Assembly: GCA_007121535.1 (NCBI GenBank)
Contig: SKKK01000094.1
Location: 1-56,710, forward strand
Source of the DNA: Planctomycetaceae bacterium
GTDB lineage: Bacteria > Planctomycetota > Planctomycetia > Pirellulales > Pirellulaceae
Direction: 5' to 3'
Length of the DNA: 56,710 bases
A program made the translations under genes and the position numbers. Of this stretch, positions 3,665 through 53,014 are shown piece by piece (the first letter of the stretch is position 1; each line of letters begins with the position of its first letter). The notes below the pieces were generated by a model. It did no database searches, had not been told where the DNA came from, and was given only the letters and a program-made list of their open reading frames with translations.

Positions 3665-3746
3665 AGTAGTGAGCGGCACGGCGCTAGCCGCCGATCCGTC
3701 GCCCCCTGGGAACCGGTGGCTAGCGCCATTCCGCTCAGTTACTACT
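3665..3746. repeat. Long imperfect palindrome with GCTAGC cores
   Basis: AGTAGTGAGCGG at 3665 pairs with CCGCTCAGTTACTACT ending at 3746, and the arms carry GGCGCTAGCCGCC and GGTGGCTAGCGCC. The same two half-sites make up the 37-bp tandem array and its inverted end copy at 51684-51939, so this is one dispersed family. It lies in the gap between two divergently oriented genes. Confidence 0.75.
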
Positions 3747-3895: not shown

Positions 3896-3965
3896 GAACG
3901 GGGGCTAGCGCCCTGCCGTTCACAGCCGCCTTGAAGAACGGGGGCTAGCGCCCTGCCGCTCACAG
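3896..3965 (+). repeat. Two direct repeats of the GCTAGCGCC family
   Basis: GAACGGGGGCTAGCGCCCTG begins at 3896 and again at 3936; both copies continue CCGTTCACAG or CCGCTCACAG. They share the GCTAGCGCC core with the palindrome at 3665-3746 and with the array near 51.7 kb. The rest of the gap 3603-4034 holds no gene that I can see. Confidence 0.75.
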
Positions 3966-48109: not shown

Positions 48110-49360
48110 ATGAAAATGGTTACACGGTTTTCGCGAGGTGTGTGTCTGCTGGCAGCTTTTTGGTGGGGTGGTACCGTGACGGCGGGTGCCGAGCAGACGC
48201 CCTCGCTGCGATGGACGATGAAGGTGCTGACGGTCGATTCCAACGAGGGGCTGGATCTGGCCGACTTTAATGGGAACGGGCTGCTGGACGTGGTGGCGGG
48301 ACGGAACTGGTACGCCGCTCCGGACTTCGTGCCGCGTCCGGTGCGGACGATCGAGGATTGGAGCGGCTACGTCGAAAGCAACGGGTGCTATGCCTACGAT
48401 GTCGATGGCGACGGGCTGATCGACGTAATCTCCGGATCGTTCCTTCCCACCGAAGTCTACTGGTTCAAGAACCCGGGGCCCGAACTGCTGATGCAAGGCA
48501 AGATGTGGGAGCGTCATCTGTTGGTCGACACCGAAACCAGTTTCAATGAAGGGCAGTTGCTGTACGACCTGGACGGCGACGGCGTCCCGGAATGGATCGT
48601 CAATTCGTGGCAGAAGAACTCGCCGATGCACGTCTGGAAGTTCACGACCGAAGAACGCCAAGTGACCATCCAGGAGGGCAACAAGGAGCGGACGGAGATT
48701 CGTGAAGTGCCGTCGATGAGGAAGATCGTGATCAGCCACGAGGGCAACGCGCATGGGATCGCCGTGGGGGACATCAACAACGACGGCCGGGTGGACATCC
48801 TGACCGGCATGGGTTGGTACGAGGCGCCCGAGAGTGATGCGATGGCAGGCAACTGGACGTTTCACCAGGATTGGGAGATGCAAGGCAGCATCCCGATGAT
48901 CGTGCGCGACTTGGACGGCGACGGCCGCAACGATTTGATCTGGAGTCGAGCCCACGATTTCGGCTTGTACTGGTGGCAGCAACTGCCGCCGGGCGAAGAC
49001 GGCAAGCTGCGATTCAAGGAGCATCTGATCGACGACCAGTGGTCCCAGGCGCACTGCCTGCACATGGCCGATCTGGACGGGGACGGGCAGGAGGAATTGA
49101 TCACCGGCAAGCGGGTATTCGCCCATAACGGTCGCGATCCCGGCGCCTTCGATCCGCCTTGCTTGTACTACTACAAATGGCACCCGGACAGACTGGAGTT
49201 TACGCGGCACGAGATCAACGTCGGCGATGCGGGCGGTGGGTTGCAGATCCGTACCGGCGACCTGAACGGCAATGGCCGTCTGGACGTCGCGGTGGCTGGC
49301 AAGAGCGGCACCTACCTGTTCTTCAACCAGGGGTTTGCCGATTCGCCTGACGCCAATTGA
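48110..49360 (+). CDS. Secreted FG-GAP/VCBS repeat protein
   Basis: A 416-residue exported protein. GAGGAG precedes the ATG at 48110 and MVTRFSRGVCLLAAFWWGGT forms a signal peptide. At least five calcium-binding-like repeats are visible: DLADFNGNGLLDVVAGR, YDVDGDGLIDVISG, YDLDGDGVPEWIVN, GDINNDGRVDILTG, RDLDGDGRNDLIWS, ADLDGDGQEELITG and GDLNGNGRLDVAVA. They build an integrin-like propeller that binds calcium. No enzyme domain is present. Its 3' end overlaps the 3' end of the convergent TRAP permease gene by 38 bases. Confidence 0.88.
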   Translation: MKMVTRFSRGVCLLAAFWWGGTVTAGAEQTPSLRWTMKVLTVDSNEGLDLADFNGNGLLDVVAGRNWYAAPDFVPRPVRTIEDWSGYVESNGCYAYDVDGDGLIDVISGSFLPTEVYWFKNPGPELLMQGKMWERHLLVDTETSFNEGQLLYDLDGDGVPEWIVNSWQKNSPMHVWKFTTEERQVTIQEGNKERTEIREVPSMRKIVISHEGNAHGIAVGDINNDGRVDILTGMGWYEAPESDAMAGNWTFHQDWEMQGSIPMIVRDLDGDGRNDLIWSRAHDFGLYWWQQLPPGEDGKLRFKEHLIDDQWSQAHCLHMADLDGDGQEELITGKRVFAHNGRDPGAFDPPCLYYYKWHPDRLEFTRHEINVGDAGGGLQIRTGDLNGNGRLDVAVAGKSGTYLFFNQGFADSPDAN

Positions 49361-51626
49361 TCGCCAGGATCAACCCGAACAGCACCATGCCGCTGCTGTC
49401 GACGATGCCGCTGAGGTTTTGCCCTGCGATCTCCAGCCTGGGGATCAGCATCAACAAGGCCGCCACGAACGCCAGCGCTCGCATGGGAGCGCTGAGCGTC
49501 GTTTTCAGGTAGCCCGTCAAGCTGGCTGCCAACGCCACGATCCCGGGCACGGCGACGACCAGCGCGACCGCCAGGTCCGGCAGGTCGCCGCGAGTGAACG
49601 GCTGGCCGCCTTCGCTCATCAGCAGCAGCGACGGGCGATAGATGAACATGTACGGCAGGGTAAAGCCGACCAGCGCGAAGCGAAACGCGGCCAGCGAGGC
49701 GGGCATGATCTTGGCGCCGGCGATCGAAGCCGTCGCATAGGCAGCCAGCGATACGGGCGGCGTGACCATCGACATCATGCCGAAATAGAAGATGAACAGA
49801 TGGGCGGCCAGCGGGTCGACGCCCATCTCGCCCAGCAGCGAGCCCATCAGCGTGGCCATCAGCAGGTAGCAGACCACCGAAGGCACGCCCATCCCCAATA
49901 CCAACGAACAGATCATGATTCCGATCAAGGCCAGCAGCAGACTGGATTCCACCACCTGCTTGATCGCCTGGCCAAAGTCATTGGCAATCGGAGTGGTCTG
50001 CACGATGCCGATGATGATGCCCACGCACGCGCTGGCCGCCACCAGCGACACGCCGTTCTGAGCCGCTCGCGTCATGGCCTGCAACATGCCGGGCCGCCAG
50101 TTGGTATGCAGCAGGGCGAAAATCAACATCCCGATCATGCCCAGGATCGAGGAGCTGAGCAGCGAATCGAATACCATACGGCCGGCGACCGTACCTTCGA
50201 CGGGATGACGCCACGAGGGGGCCATCAAAAACTCCAACCAACGGCCTGGCGACGCCGCCGCGGGGACCAACAGGCCAACGGCTTGATGCAACACGACCAC
50301 TGCGGCGAAACAGGTCAATGCCAGCACGCGAGCTTGCATCGGGAGCTGCAGTCGAGGTCGCATGGCGGTCAGCAACAGAATCCAGACCAGCGATCCGGTC
50401 ACGGCTTTGAAAGCCGAAAAACCCAGCAGCAACAGGCCGACCAGGGCGCCCAAGGCACCGAAGAAAACCAGCGCTTCGTACTCCCAGATCCGAGGCCGAG
50501 CCTGTTCGTCCTGGTCCGTCGCGCGAGCACCGATGCGTCGCGAGTACAGATGGACGATCATCCACAACGAGAAGTAATACAGGATGGCGGGGATCAACGC
50601 GGCGCGCGCGATGTCCAGGAACGTCAACTGCGGCTGGCCCGGGCCGCGATCGACGAACTCCAGCATCATGTAGGCGCCCGCGCCCATGATCGGTGGCACC
50701 AGGGTCCCGCCGGAAGCCGCCGCCGCTTCGATGCCCGCCGCCACGTGCCGCTGGAACCCGGCGCTGCGCATCATCGGGATGGTGAACGATCCCGTCGTCA
50801 CCGCGTTGGCCACGGCGCTGCCGGACAACGACCCCATCAGGCCGCTGCTGAGCACCGAGACTTTGGCCGGTCCGCCCGGCGTCCCGCCGAACACCCGTTG
50901 CGAAAAATCGATGATAAATTGCGTGGCGCCGGACATTTCCAGGAACGATCCGAACAGCACGAACAGAAAGACGTACGTGAACATCACCCCGGCGGCCGGA
51001 CCCAGCACGCCCAACGATTGCAGGAAAGTCGATCCGATGATCTGTTGTGTGTCCAGCCCGCGGTGGGGCAGCAGCCAATCGGGCAGATCGGGCGCAAACC
51101 AGGCGTGCAGCACGAAGGCCATGGCCAGCGCCGGAACGATCCAGCCGATACTGCGCCGCGCCGCCTCGAGCACCAAAACCAGACCGATTCCGCCGATGAT
51201 GAAATCCAGCGTTTTCTCCTGGCCGGCGCGATTGCCCAACGATTGGCCGCCCAGCCAGAGATGCTCGCGGAACCAGGGCCAAGGTTCGGTCTGGACGAAA
51301 ACGTAGCCGAAGCAGACCGCGGTCATCGCGGCCAACGCGATGCTGACGATGCGGTCGGCCAGCCAGATCGTATGAGCGCGTCGCCATAGCGGTCGATCCA
51401 ACGGGTCGGCCAAGTCTTCTGGATGCCGGATCGCTCGCCAAGCCGGACAGGTCAGAAAGCACAAGATCATCCCCAACATCACGAAGATGGCCAACGCCGA
51501 CTGCGGTTGCAGCAGGTTGTAGTTCACCGTGATCAAGGTGAAAAAGCACAGGGCCACGCTCAGCGCGGTGACGATCCACCAGCCGCTTTGCTTCGACACC
51601 GATGCCCTCCGTTCGGCTTTTGTCAT
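49323..51626 (-). CDS. TRAP transporter fused permease (DctQ/M type, 4TM/12TM)
   Basis: The 767 residues are strongly hydrophobic with about 18 or more membrane spans. AVCFGYVFVQTEPWPWFREH in the N-terminal block suits the small DctQ-like part. The large part carries FMNxGFP-type loops in altered form, such as GGTPGGPAKVSVLSSGLMGS and SGSAVANAVTTGSFTIPMMR, diagnostic for TRAP 4TM/12TM fusions. These import organic acids with sodium or proton gradients together with a TAXI binding protein, here encoded at 51962. A 37-bp tandem array separates the two. The C-terminal end overlaps the FG-GAP gene. Confidence 0.92.
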   Translation of the reverse strand: MTKAERRASVSKQSGWWIVTALSVALCFFTLITVNYNLLQPQSALAIFVMLGMILCFLTCPAWRAIRHPEDLADPLDRPLWRRAHTIWLADRIVSIALAAMTAVCFGYVFVQTEPWPWFREHLWLGGQSLGNRAGQEKTLDFIIGGIGLVLVLEAARRSIGWIVPALAMAFVLHAWFAPDLPDWLLPHRGLDTQQIIGSTFLQSLGVLGPAAGVMFTYVFLFVLFGSFLEMSGATQFIIDFSQRVFGGTPGGPAKVSVLSSGLMGSLSGSAVANAVTTGSFTIPMMRSAGFQRHVAAGIEAAAASGGTLVPPIMGAGAYMMLEFVDRGPGQPQLTFLDIARAALIPAILYYFSLWMIVHLYSRRIGARATDQDEQARPRIWEYEALVFFGALGALVGLLLLGFSAFKAVTGSLVWILLLTAMRPRLQLPMQARVLALTCFAAVVVLHQAVGLLVPAAASPGRWLEFLMAPSWRHPVEGTVAGRMVFDSLLSSSILGMIGMLIFALLHTNWRPGMLQAMTRAAQNGVSLVAASACVGIIIGIVQTTPIANDFGQAIKQVVESSLLLALIGIMICSLVLGMGVPSVVCYLLMATLMGSLLGEMGVDPLAAHLFIFYFGMMSMVTPPVSLAAYATASIAGAKIMPASLAAFRFALVGFTLPYMFIYRPSLLLMSEGGQPFTRGDLPDLAVALVVAVPGIVALAASLTGYLKTTLSAPMRALAFVAALLMLIPRLEIAGQNLSGIVDSSGMVLFGLILAINWRQANRQTPG

Positions 51627-51683
51627 GTCCAGTCCCCGCCAACACAGCTTAGGATCGTCGCAGAATTAACTGTCGGTTCTTAA

Positions 51684-51939
51684 GTAAGCGGCACGGCGCT
51701 AGCCGCCGGTCAGTTATTGTGTAAGCGGCACGGCGCTAGCCGCCGGTCAGTTATTGCGTAAGCGGCACGGCGCTAGCCGCCGGTCTGTTATTGCGTGAGC
51801 GGCTCGGCGCTAGCCGCCGGTCTGTTATTGCGTGAGCGGCTCGGCGCTAGCCGCCGGTCTGTTATTGCGTGAGCGGCTCGGCGCTAGCCGCCGGTCTGTT
51901 CACTGCACGGGAACCGGTGGCTAGCGCCATTCCGCTCAG
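51684..51939. repeat. Six 37-bp tandem repeats plus inverted end copy
   Basis: Six units start at 51684, 51721, 51758, 51795, 51832 and 51869, all exactly 37 bases apart, with core GCGGCACGGCGCTAGCCGCC and a spacer GGTCAGTTATTG. Units 1-3 have GCGGCAC, 4-6 GCGGCTC; units 1-2 have GTCAG, 3-6 GTCTG. An inverted half-site GGAACCGGTGGCTAGCGCCA to CTCAG ends the array at about 51939. CGGC-GCTA-GCCG can form a 4-bp stem with a tetraloop. It lies between the genes of the TRAP-TAXI operon. There are no unique spacers. Confidence 0.9.
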
Positions 51940-51961: not shown

Positions 51962-53014
51962 TCAGGTTTCCTCGTCGGGCTGTGGCACCGATTCGGACTC
52001 TTCGTCCTGCCAGATGCCGATCTCCCGATAGAAGCGGATCGCCCCCGGGTGGAACGGCGTGCCGGTGAACCGAGCCGCATTCTGTTCGTTGATCGACAAT
52101 CCGGCTCGATGCTGTTTGGCGATCTCTGCGCGATTCTCCCAGATCGTCTTGGTGATCTGGTAGATCAGTTCTTCGTCTTCCGAGGCCGAAGCGATCAGAT
52201 GCATCGACCCGACGTTCATGGCCACAAAGTCCTCGGTCATGCCGCGGTACGTTGGTTTGCCATCGCGCGTCTTGGCCGGGATGATCATTTCCTCGTAGAA
52301 GGGATAATCTGCGATCAACTGTTGTCGGATCGCAGGTTCGTACGGCACGAAAAAGATGTCATGCGTCGTCGTCGCCTGGGTCACAGCCGGTGTCGGGATG
52401 GCGCCGCCCATGAACGCGGCGTCTGCCGCCCCGTCGCCCAACAGCGATACCGCTTCCGAATACGTGGCCTGGATCGGCGTGAATTCCTGTTCGCCATCGC
52501 GATAGGTCACCCCATGCTCGGTCATCAACGGTCCCAGGAACATCTCGAAACCCGCCCCCGGCGGCCCGACGACCACCCGCTTGTTCTTCAAGTCCGCCAG
52601 GGTTCGTATCCCCGAGTCCTTTTGGGTGATGAACAAGCCGACGTTCGGCGCCAATGTCACCACGGCTCGAAGATCGTAAGGCTTTTCCCAGGCGCCTTCG
52701 CCTCGCACCGCGTAGTAGGTGATCGCCGAATTGGACATCGCCAATTGGATCGCCCCGGAATCCAGTTCGCGGATATTCTGCTGCGATCCCATCGTGCCCT
52801 TCGATTGCACTCGCCAAGCACTTTCGCCCCGGAACTCGTTCAACACCGACGCGATGGCATCGCCCACCGGACGGAACGCTCCGCCCGTCGGCGCGGTTCC
52901 CAACGTCACAAACTGACGCCGCTCGGAAGGTCCCCCGCAACCCGACAAGGGCAACAGCAGTCCCACGAATATCAAGAATAGGCCTGTTGCCCACGTCCAA
53001 CCATGCCAGTTCAT
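51962..53014 (-). CDS. TAXI-family TRAP transporter solute-binding lipoprotein
   Basis: The 350-residue protein from ATG 53014 begins with a lipoprotein signal (TGLFLIFVGLLLPLSGCGG, lipobox LSGC). FVTLGTAPTGGAFRPVGDAI and NIRELDSGAIQLAMSNSAIT are typical TAXI motifs. GVGLF-like LAPNVGLFITQKDSGIRTLA and VVVGPPGAGFEMFLGPLM follow. It captures a small organic anion in the periplasm and passes it to the fused permease at 49323. Longer frames to 53113 have no signal. The permease follows 336 bases downstream, past the 37-bp array, which may influence the relative amounts. Confidence 0.9.
   Translation of the reverse strand: MNWHGWTWATGLFLIFVGLLLPLSGCGGPSERRQFVTLGTAPTGGAFRPVGDAIASVLNEFRGESAWRVQSKGTMGSQQNIRELDSGAIQLAMSNSAITYYAVRGEGAWEKPYDLRAVVTLAPNVGLFITQKDSGIRTLADLKNKRVVVGPPGAGFEMFLGPLMTEHGVTYRDGEQEFTPIQATYSEAVSLLGDGAADAAFMGGAIPTPAVTQATTTHDIFFVPYEPAIRQQLIADYPFYEEMIIPAKTRDGKPTYRGMTEDFVAMNVGSMHLIASASEDEELIYQITKTIWENRAEIAKQHRAGLSINEQNAARFTGTPFHPGAIRFYREIGIWQDEESESVPQPDEET

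Follow-up and report, generated by a model that had tools for sequence, protein, structure and literature searches.

The DNA analysed here, referred to as the window, is a stretch of 56,710 nucleotides from one contig of a Planctomycetaceae bacterium, whose genome comprises 9.3 Mb in 706 contigs. On its minus strand the gene of a TAXI-family TRAP solute-binding protein is followed by that of a fused TRAP permease, with a tandem array of 37-bp units between them. This order of binding protein, array and permease, proposed in an initial reading made from the letters alone (the sequence-only reading), is confirmed on the minus strand by the open reading frames and by matches to TIGR02122 and TIGR02123. 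The features discussed below are listed here; REP-A denotes the repeat family to which the units belong, and TIR2 one of two longer palindromes described further on.

3680..3727, no strand assigned: another REP-A inverted pair with the same two subtypes as in the array (core search, window)
3897..3952, minus strand: two further REP-A units of the GGCGCTAGCCCCCGTT subtype (core search, window)
49323..51599, minus strand: TRAP fused permease gene, downstream of the array (TIGR02123, PF06808; GTG start after GGAGGG chosen)
51650..51669, plus strand: TIR2 palindrome, left arm, with 4 mismatches to TAGGATCGGCAAAGAAATAA and a distance of 26 bp to the first core that some other copies share
51674..51895, plus strand: six tandem 37-bp units, each a 10-nt flank and a 27-nt REP-A hairpin (Tandem Repeats Finder, core search, sequence reading)
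51869..51939, minus strand: inverted pair formed by unit 6 and the inverted unit (RNA folding)
51913..51939, minus strand: seventh REP-A unit, inverted, CTGAGCGGAATGG..CCACCGG subtype (core at 51913–51928, 1 mismatch)
51962..53014, minus strand: TAXI-family TRAP solute-binding protein gene, upstream of the array (TIGR02122, PF16868; ATG start chosen)

The longest ATG start of the permease gene is at 51626; the gene probably begins at the GTG at 51599, which follows GGAGGG and is the start common to the sister sequences. The gap between the two genes measures 362 nt to this GTG and 335 nt to the upstream ATG, and the six units together with the inverted one occupy most of the 335-nt spacer. The best named relatives of the permease belong to assemblies called Planctomycetaceae and Pirellulaceae.

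Tandem Repeats Finder describes the array at 51684–51900 as 5.9 copies of period 37 with 97% matches, and its score of 371 is the highest of the 14 rows obtained for the window. Short tandem repeats of 7-bp units are also present near the window start, at 92–136 and 524–576. The exact core GGCGCTAGCCGCCGGT occurs in the array six times at a spacing of 37 bp; with up to three mismatches the window contains 14 core matches, compared with a mean of 1.21 in shuffled sequences, and 14 were reached in none of 100 shuffles. Read unit by unit, units 1–3 start with GTAAGCGGCA and units 4–6 with GTGAGCGGCT, and the inter-unit spacers are, in order, CAGTTATTGT, CAGTTATTGC, and CTGTTATTGC. Four sites of the array each change once, in order along the units, so the ordered base changes claimed at the outset are indeed present; they fit the stepwise tandem copying from which such single changes would be expected. 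The six units of exact length reported at the same time were recovered by the core search as six copies 37 bp apart, although in the earlier phase, starting from 51684, the sixth departs after 32 bases. The ten nucleotides left of the first unit (51674–51683) resemble an inter-unit spacer, and GTC recurs 37 bp apart; the copied unit is therefore read as a 10-nt left flank followed by a 27-nt hairpin, a phase that yields six full-length units over 51674–51895, the flank of the first being diverged. In an alignment with the arm of another copy (L099), this flank has the same base at 31 of 42 positions. The range 51684–51939 given earlier does contain the tandem array, but it also covers the seventh, inverted unit, which had not been mentioned, and the cluster pattern is six units forward and one inverted (>>>>>><).

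The predicted REP-A hairpin consists of an outer CGG/CCG stem, a two-base bulge, and an inner YGGC-GCTA-GCCR element, and it is supported by compensatory changes among units with at least 19 of the 27 consensus bases (102 of 105 in the own genome). Pair 11–22 is C-G in 20, T-A in 13, G-C in four, and T-G in one of 40 distinct units, with two unpaired, and pair 7–24 is G-C in 37 of 40 own units and C-G in all six units of genome G013. Pair 11–22 is broken in two of the 40 own units, in two of the six from G013, and in both units from other genomes. A rival register of the hairpin was rejected, as it fails at 6–22 (21/40) and at 7–21 (0/6 in G013). In RNA of the operon strand, unit 6 and the inverted unit fold into one long hairpin of −48.2 kcal/mol (z −8.49); the outer pair of this hairpin, at 51938, follows the TAXI stop codon by 23 nt, and the value for the whole 335-nt spacer is −144.5 (z −3.29). 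Single REP-A units fold unexceptionally (z −0.66 and −1.31; −0.15 for the inverted unit).

Outside the window the unit is dispersed over the whole genome. The REP-A core is found 749 times at up to one mismatch (six times for the core read backwards as a control) and 1006 times at up to two mismatches (control 81), about 8% of the latter being possible chance matches. Its copies are extragenic: in 48 stretches totalling 517,426 bp, 68% of which is coding, none of 56 matches and none of 22 clusters lie inside called genes, and in a wider set of 809,831 bp two of 121 matches lie within them. The 48 stretches were chosen by contig number, except for C690, taken for its length though it carries an unrelated RAYT; 12 further stretches, chosen for REPs or RAYTs, were counted only in the wider set. 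Genes were called with a home-made program based on codon log-odds, which misses short genes. The wider set includes 44 clusters (45, 44, or 43, depending on the joining distance), 11 of them plain inverted pairs and others tandem runs, the period of which differs by locus and is 28 to 45 bp in most; the largest clusters comprise seven units, and the array of the window is among them. The consensus is [GC]TGAGCGG[CA]A[CT]GGCGCTAGCC[GA]CCGG. Among 119 units the foot begins with G in 66% and with C in 23%, followed by T (88%), G (87%), and A (96%), and is mostly GTGA and less often CTGA, the feet in the array being GTAAG/GTGAG. No paper naming the REP-A motif was found in a literature search by motif and among REP papers dealing with Planctomycetes.

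The placement of the clusters is close to that expected from the available space. Eleven are co-directional, two convergent, and three divergent, compared with 10.5, 1.6, and 3.9 expected, with six more at contig ends; this sample shows no excess of REP-A in co-directional or convergent spacers. Relative to transcription, the counts are 21 for the same orientation and 11 for the opposite one, and neither tally is taken as a placement bias. Of the 118 co-directional spacers in the 48 stretches that measure at least 40 nt, 10 carry REP-A, and the wider set gives 20 of 182, so its presence in the TRAP spacer needs no transporter-specific reason: a REP between a binding-protein gene and a permease gene can be expected from the background density. 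The view of the array as a feature of the TRAP operon, from which the sequence-only reading had started, is not supported by these counts.

A profile search of the genome gave 11 Y1_Tnp matches at 10 loci. Only one of these, on contig C550, carries REP-A at up to two mismatches, with nine copies distributed on both sides of the gene, and the other nine loci have none at this threshold. The C550 protein has 158 residues and matches PF01797 with 27.2 bits (cut-off 23); a phmmer search of PDB sequences gave no match up to an E value of 0.1. Across 15 aligned proteins His88, Tyr146, and Gln151, belonging to the HuH and Y----Q motifs, are invariant, and His86 is retained in at least 90%. Homologues occur in 15 of the 40 genomes searched, own included, and five of 30 homologue loci carry REP-A at up to two mismatches: nine copies in the own genome, 24 in G013, two and two in G021, and one, on one side only, in G039. 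The four top-scoring homologue loci are among these five. At the remaining 25 no REP-A was detected at that threshold, and in G012, with 32 core matches, no C550 homologue was found. Five of the other nine Y1_Tnp loci of the own genome were tested; four (L009, L010, L011, and L015) are flanked by different inverted repeats, and one has no inverted repeat of at least 14 nt, which suggests that several pairs of REP and transposase exist side by side in this genome.

The sister genomes G001 and G003 were used to compare orthologous sites. The flanks of 29 REP-A clusters were searched with 29 of 34 fragments, the five dropped being two ATPases, one dehydrogenase-like fragment, one doubtful ORF, and the TRAP one. 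This gave 39 matches, 23 of which were inspected (15 in G001 and eight in G003, representing 16 clusters); the rest were paralogue- or composite-like or had no locus. The reading extended at most 450 nt past each gene and was shorter where a contig ended (80 and 101 nt in the two shortest cases), orthology being taken from the flank match. REP-A is absent from the non-coding DNA at all 23 sites, the one match with three mismatches lying inside a coding stretch. Core counts at up to one mismatch in G001–G003 (4, 9, and 2) are close to those of the backwards control (3, 8, and 5). Taken together, the empty sister sites and the control-level counts make the amplification of REP-A look specific to the host lineage, as judged from these alignments.

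The TAXI–permease spacer of G001 and G003 (permease 92% identical) contains an unrelated palindrome, REP-B (GGCACACGGAGTGTGCC), present at up to two mismatches in four copies at the G001 locus and in one at a contig end of G003; in G002 this spacer has 33 nt and no repeat. The REP-B copies are situated at L028 and L029, at the 5' end of the permease gene strand. Counted in eight of the 40 genomes at up to one mismatch, REP-B has 96 matches in G001, 50 in G003, 31 in G002, and six in the own genome; the more distant G039 has 419. Besides the TRAP spacer, 15 spacers of G001 and eight of G003 that are orthologous to REP-A sites were inspected, and REP-B is present in one of the former and in none of the latter. 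A rule by which different REP families occupy the same spacers was considered and rejected, since one in 15 against a chance of ~0.3 in 15 (estimated from a rough count of ~50 REP-B clusters and ~3,000 spacers) is too few.

Alignment with the sister genomes also reveals that REP-A pairs sit inside longer inserts. Two palindromes are involved: TIR1 (TGCGTTGTCCAGGCGAAA) is 21–22 or 28–30 bp from the core in 27 of the 30 arms found, and TIR2 is 12 or 26–27 bp from it in 10 of 12 arms. At loose limits at least one of the two occurs at 30 of 43 clusters and neither at 13; TIR1 is found on both sides of nine clusters and on any side of 21, TIR2 on both sides of two and on any side of 10. Shuffled queries often match at these limits as well (15–99 against 130, and 10–43 against 63), and it is therefore the fixed distances that carry the argument. 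TIR1 matches the own genome 242 times, compared with once for the control, and five other genomes 0–4 times; TIR2 has 95 matches in the own genome and 41, 18, and 7 in G001–G003. The tetranucleotide CTAG precedes 20 of 27 TIR1 arms and both arms in five of eight complete elements, overlapping in one case (L114) the stop codon of the host gene. This suggests a 4-bp target duplication, although CTAG is its own reverse complement and may thus be part of the repeat. At the array of the window, no significant right TIR2 arm was found. TIR1 and TIR2 palindromes with no REP pair in the middle were seen at L072:5855–5918 and L271:1050–1152. An autonomous DDE transposase with TIR1 or TIR2 was sought through PF01609 and rejected: the genome has two matches to this family, with TIR1 near neither, and the TIR2 palindrome at L271, near one of them, is a separate one.

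REP-A has the general features of REPs and REPINs, namely a short palindromic hairpin, many extragenic copies, inverted pairs, and a link to a Y1/HuH gene, and can be counted as a new family within this known kind of repeat. Class 3 TnpA-Y1 proteins are described, in the part of PMC6006769 used here, as occurring mainly in Planctomycetes, Acidobacteria, and Proteobacteria, with a Y----Q motif, a profile of 155 positions, and a foot CnGA. The C550 protein fits most of these published features, the likeness being one of described features rather than of profile score. It shares with class 3 REPtrons the Y1/HuH domain with Y----Q, a similar length (158 residues versus 155 positions), and flanking hairpins that are repeated many times, whereas the REP-A foot is mostly GTGA and less often CTGA, and that part of the paper makes no mention of REPs nested within TIR palindromes. 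The REPINs of Pseudomonas fluorescens SBW25, as presented in the portion of PMC3116915 considered, likewise form inverted pairs and tandem arrays in repeat groups each beside a RAYT gene; they differ in sequence and foot, and from the REP-A runs in that the periods of the latter vary by locus and that one arm is copied together with its flank. The GTAG and CGTC super-families (PMC3733652, in part) are also short extragenic palindromes, often in opposite pairs, and REPs are reported there from Planctomycetes including R. baltica. REP-A has neither a GTAG nor a CGTC tag, and differs from what is described there in showing no co-directional or convergent excess in our sample. Membership in the GTAG super-family was rejected, since its foot GT[AG]G is at odds with the consensus [GC]TGAG and with GTAAG/GTGAG in the array.

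Other TRAP-TAXI operons were compared at 80 permease loci, 75 of which have a readable TAXI–permease gap. With the own locus included (76), the median gap is 69.5 nt, 30 gaps being at least 100 nt, 15 at least 200 nt, and 36 under 60 nt. In 13 loci (L199, L203, L206, L209, L211–L215, L217, L218, L220, and L236) the two genes share a 4-bp overlap, which suggests translational coupling; 11 of these loci bear acidobacterial names. The unit, for which a search in other TRAP operons had been proposed, is not shared by them: 74 of the 75 other readable spacers have no REP-A at up to three mismatches, and the one match, in L227, is an arm of an inverted pair. There is no tandem REP-A in these 75 spacers and no REP-B at up to two mismatches. 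Other palindromes were seen by eye in L221 and L224, and a terminator-like perfect hairpin with 15-nt arms and A and T runs in L180 and L174. Perfect inverted repeats with arms of at least nine nucleotides are present in 11 of 40 spacers of at least 60 nt, own included, compared with a mean of 2.17 and a maximum of eight in 40 shuffles. Stem-loops recur in the TAXI–permease spacer and are of unlike kinds, and most operons manage without them. In E. coli a REP between malE and malF reportedly places a hairpin after the binding-protein gene and before the permease gene; the likeness lies in that position, whereas element and host are unrelated. The REP analogy drawn from the letters alone was right to the extent that a REP-type element does lie between the two genes.

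The array is very probably a site of a lineage-specific REP/REPIN family, REP-A, that expanded locally in tandem and is likely linked to a RAYT. It looks like a locally multiplied mobile repeat of a known kind and not like a switch built for the transporter. An inverted REP pair would have entered the spacer directly behind the stop codon of the binding-protein gene, and one of its arms, along with the 10 bp to the left, would then have been copied in tandem to six units. The ordered changes point to slippage or unequal exchange across the GTC microhomology as the probable means of copying. The spread of REP-A itself was most likely due to the Y1/HuH protein of C550, an association in the genome that published work on other RAYTs would extend to mobilisation. 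The absence of REP-A from most homologue loci, the core matches in a genome with no homologue found (G012), the breaks at pair 11–22 in some units, the GTGA/CTGA foot in place of GT[AG]G, and the many copies inside longer palindromes, for which a mechanism acting on REPs alone offers no explanation, all speak against this interpretation. In the operon the array would be mainly a hitchhiker. REPs are reported in PMC12306157 to shield mRNA against decay and to serve as attenuators, and we can tentatively speculate that the hairpins retard 3'-to-5' degradation of the mRNA over its binding-protein portion, and may attenuate the permease portion, without having been selected for this effect.

That the array is instead a selected regulator, with a hairpin behind the stop codon shielding the binding-protein mRNA and the number of units setting the ratio of binding protein to permease, seems unlikely. 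Its position and the strong hairpin on the operon strand agree with such a role, as do the excess of inverted repeats over shuffled spacers in relatives, the unrelated REPs in the spacer of G001 and G003, and the REP-A-like pair in L227; yet REP-A occupies other co-directional spacers as well, tandem REP-A is restricted to this one among the readable spacers, the typical gap is short, and beyond the TRAP spacer only one of the 15 G001 spacers inspected has REP-B. Tuning of the ratio by the array is possible, and an operon-specific role for it is unsupported. An intrinsic terminator or attenuator between the genes is a much weaker candidate, to be regarded as improbable: the spacer does hold stable hairpins, and terminator-like ones were seen in L180 and L174, but all three terminator-like sites of the array are on the plus strand, against the operon, and the terminator search gave none on the minus strand in the spacer. 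Least credible, to the point of being negligible, is a simple minisatellite, a CRISPR-like array, or a coding repeat. The head-to-tail units recall all three, while the unit is dispersed genome-wide, the spacers are near-identical, unlike those of a CRISPR, 37 is no multiple of three, and the window has no Rfam family at gathering score.

The palindromes around REP-A raise a different alternative, doubtful in our judgement, by which the mobile unit is a MITE of the DDE type bounded by long terminal inverted repeats, with REP-A a passenger in its loop and the RAYT not the main mover. The fixed core distances, the CTAG before the arms, the near restriction of TIR1 to the own genome, and the occurrence of both palindromes without REP-A argue for it; the lack of an autonomous element at the PF01609 matches of the genome, the 13 clusters with neither TIR at limits where shuffled queries match often, and the missing significant right arm at the array argue against it. 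Somewhat less probable still is a reading of REP-A as a composite parasite, in which a REP pair linked to a class 3 RAYT entered the loops of two unrelated palindromic elements and was spread both by its own enzyme and by theirs; the TRAP-TAXI spacers would then be sites that different REP families settle anew in sister species. Under the preferred reading as a REP/REPIN site, the window gives access to a large REP family, carried by a planctomycete-like genome together with a candidate transposase that fits the little-studied class 3, and sites occupied in this genome and empty of REP-A in the sisters make the insertion boundaries and the enzyme testable. The nesting of REP pairs within longer palindromes would be informative about the way these repeats spread; TIR2 is present across the genus, and TIR1 is nearly private to the own genome.
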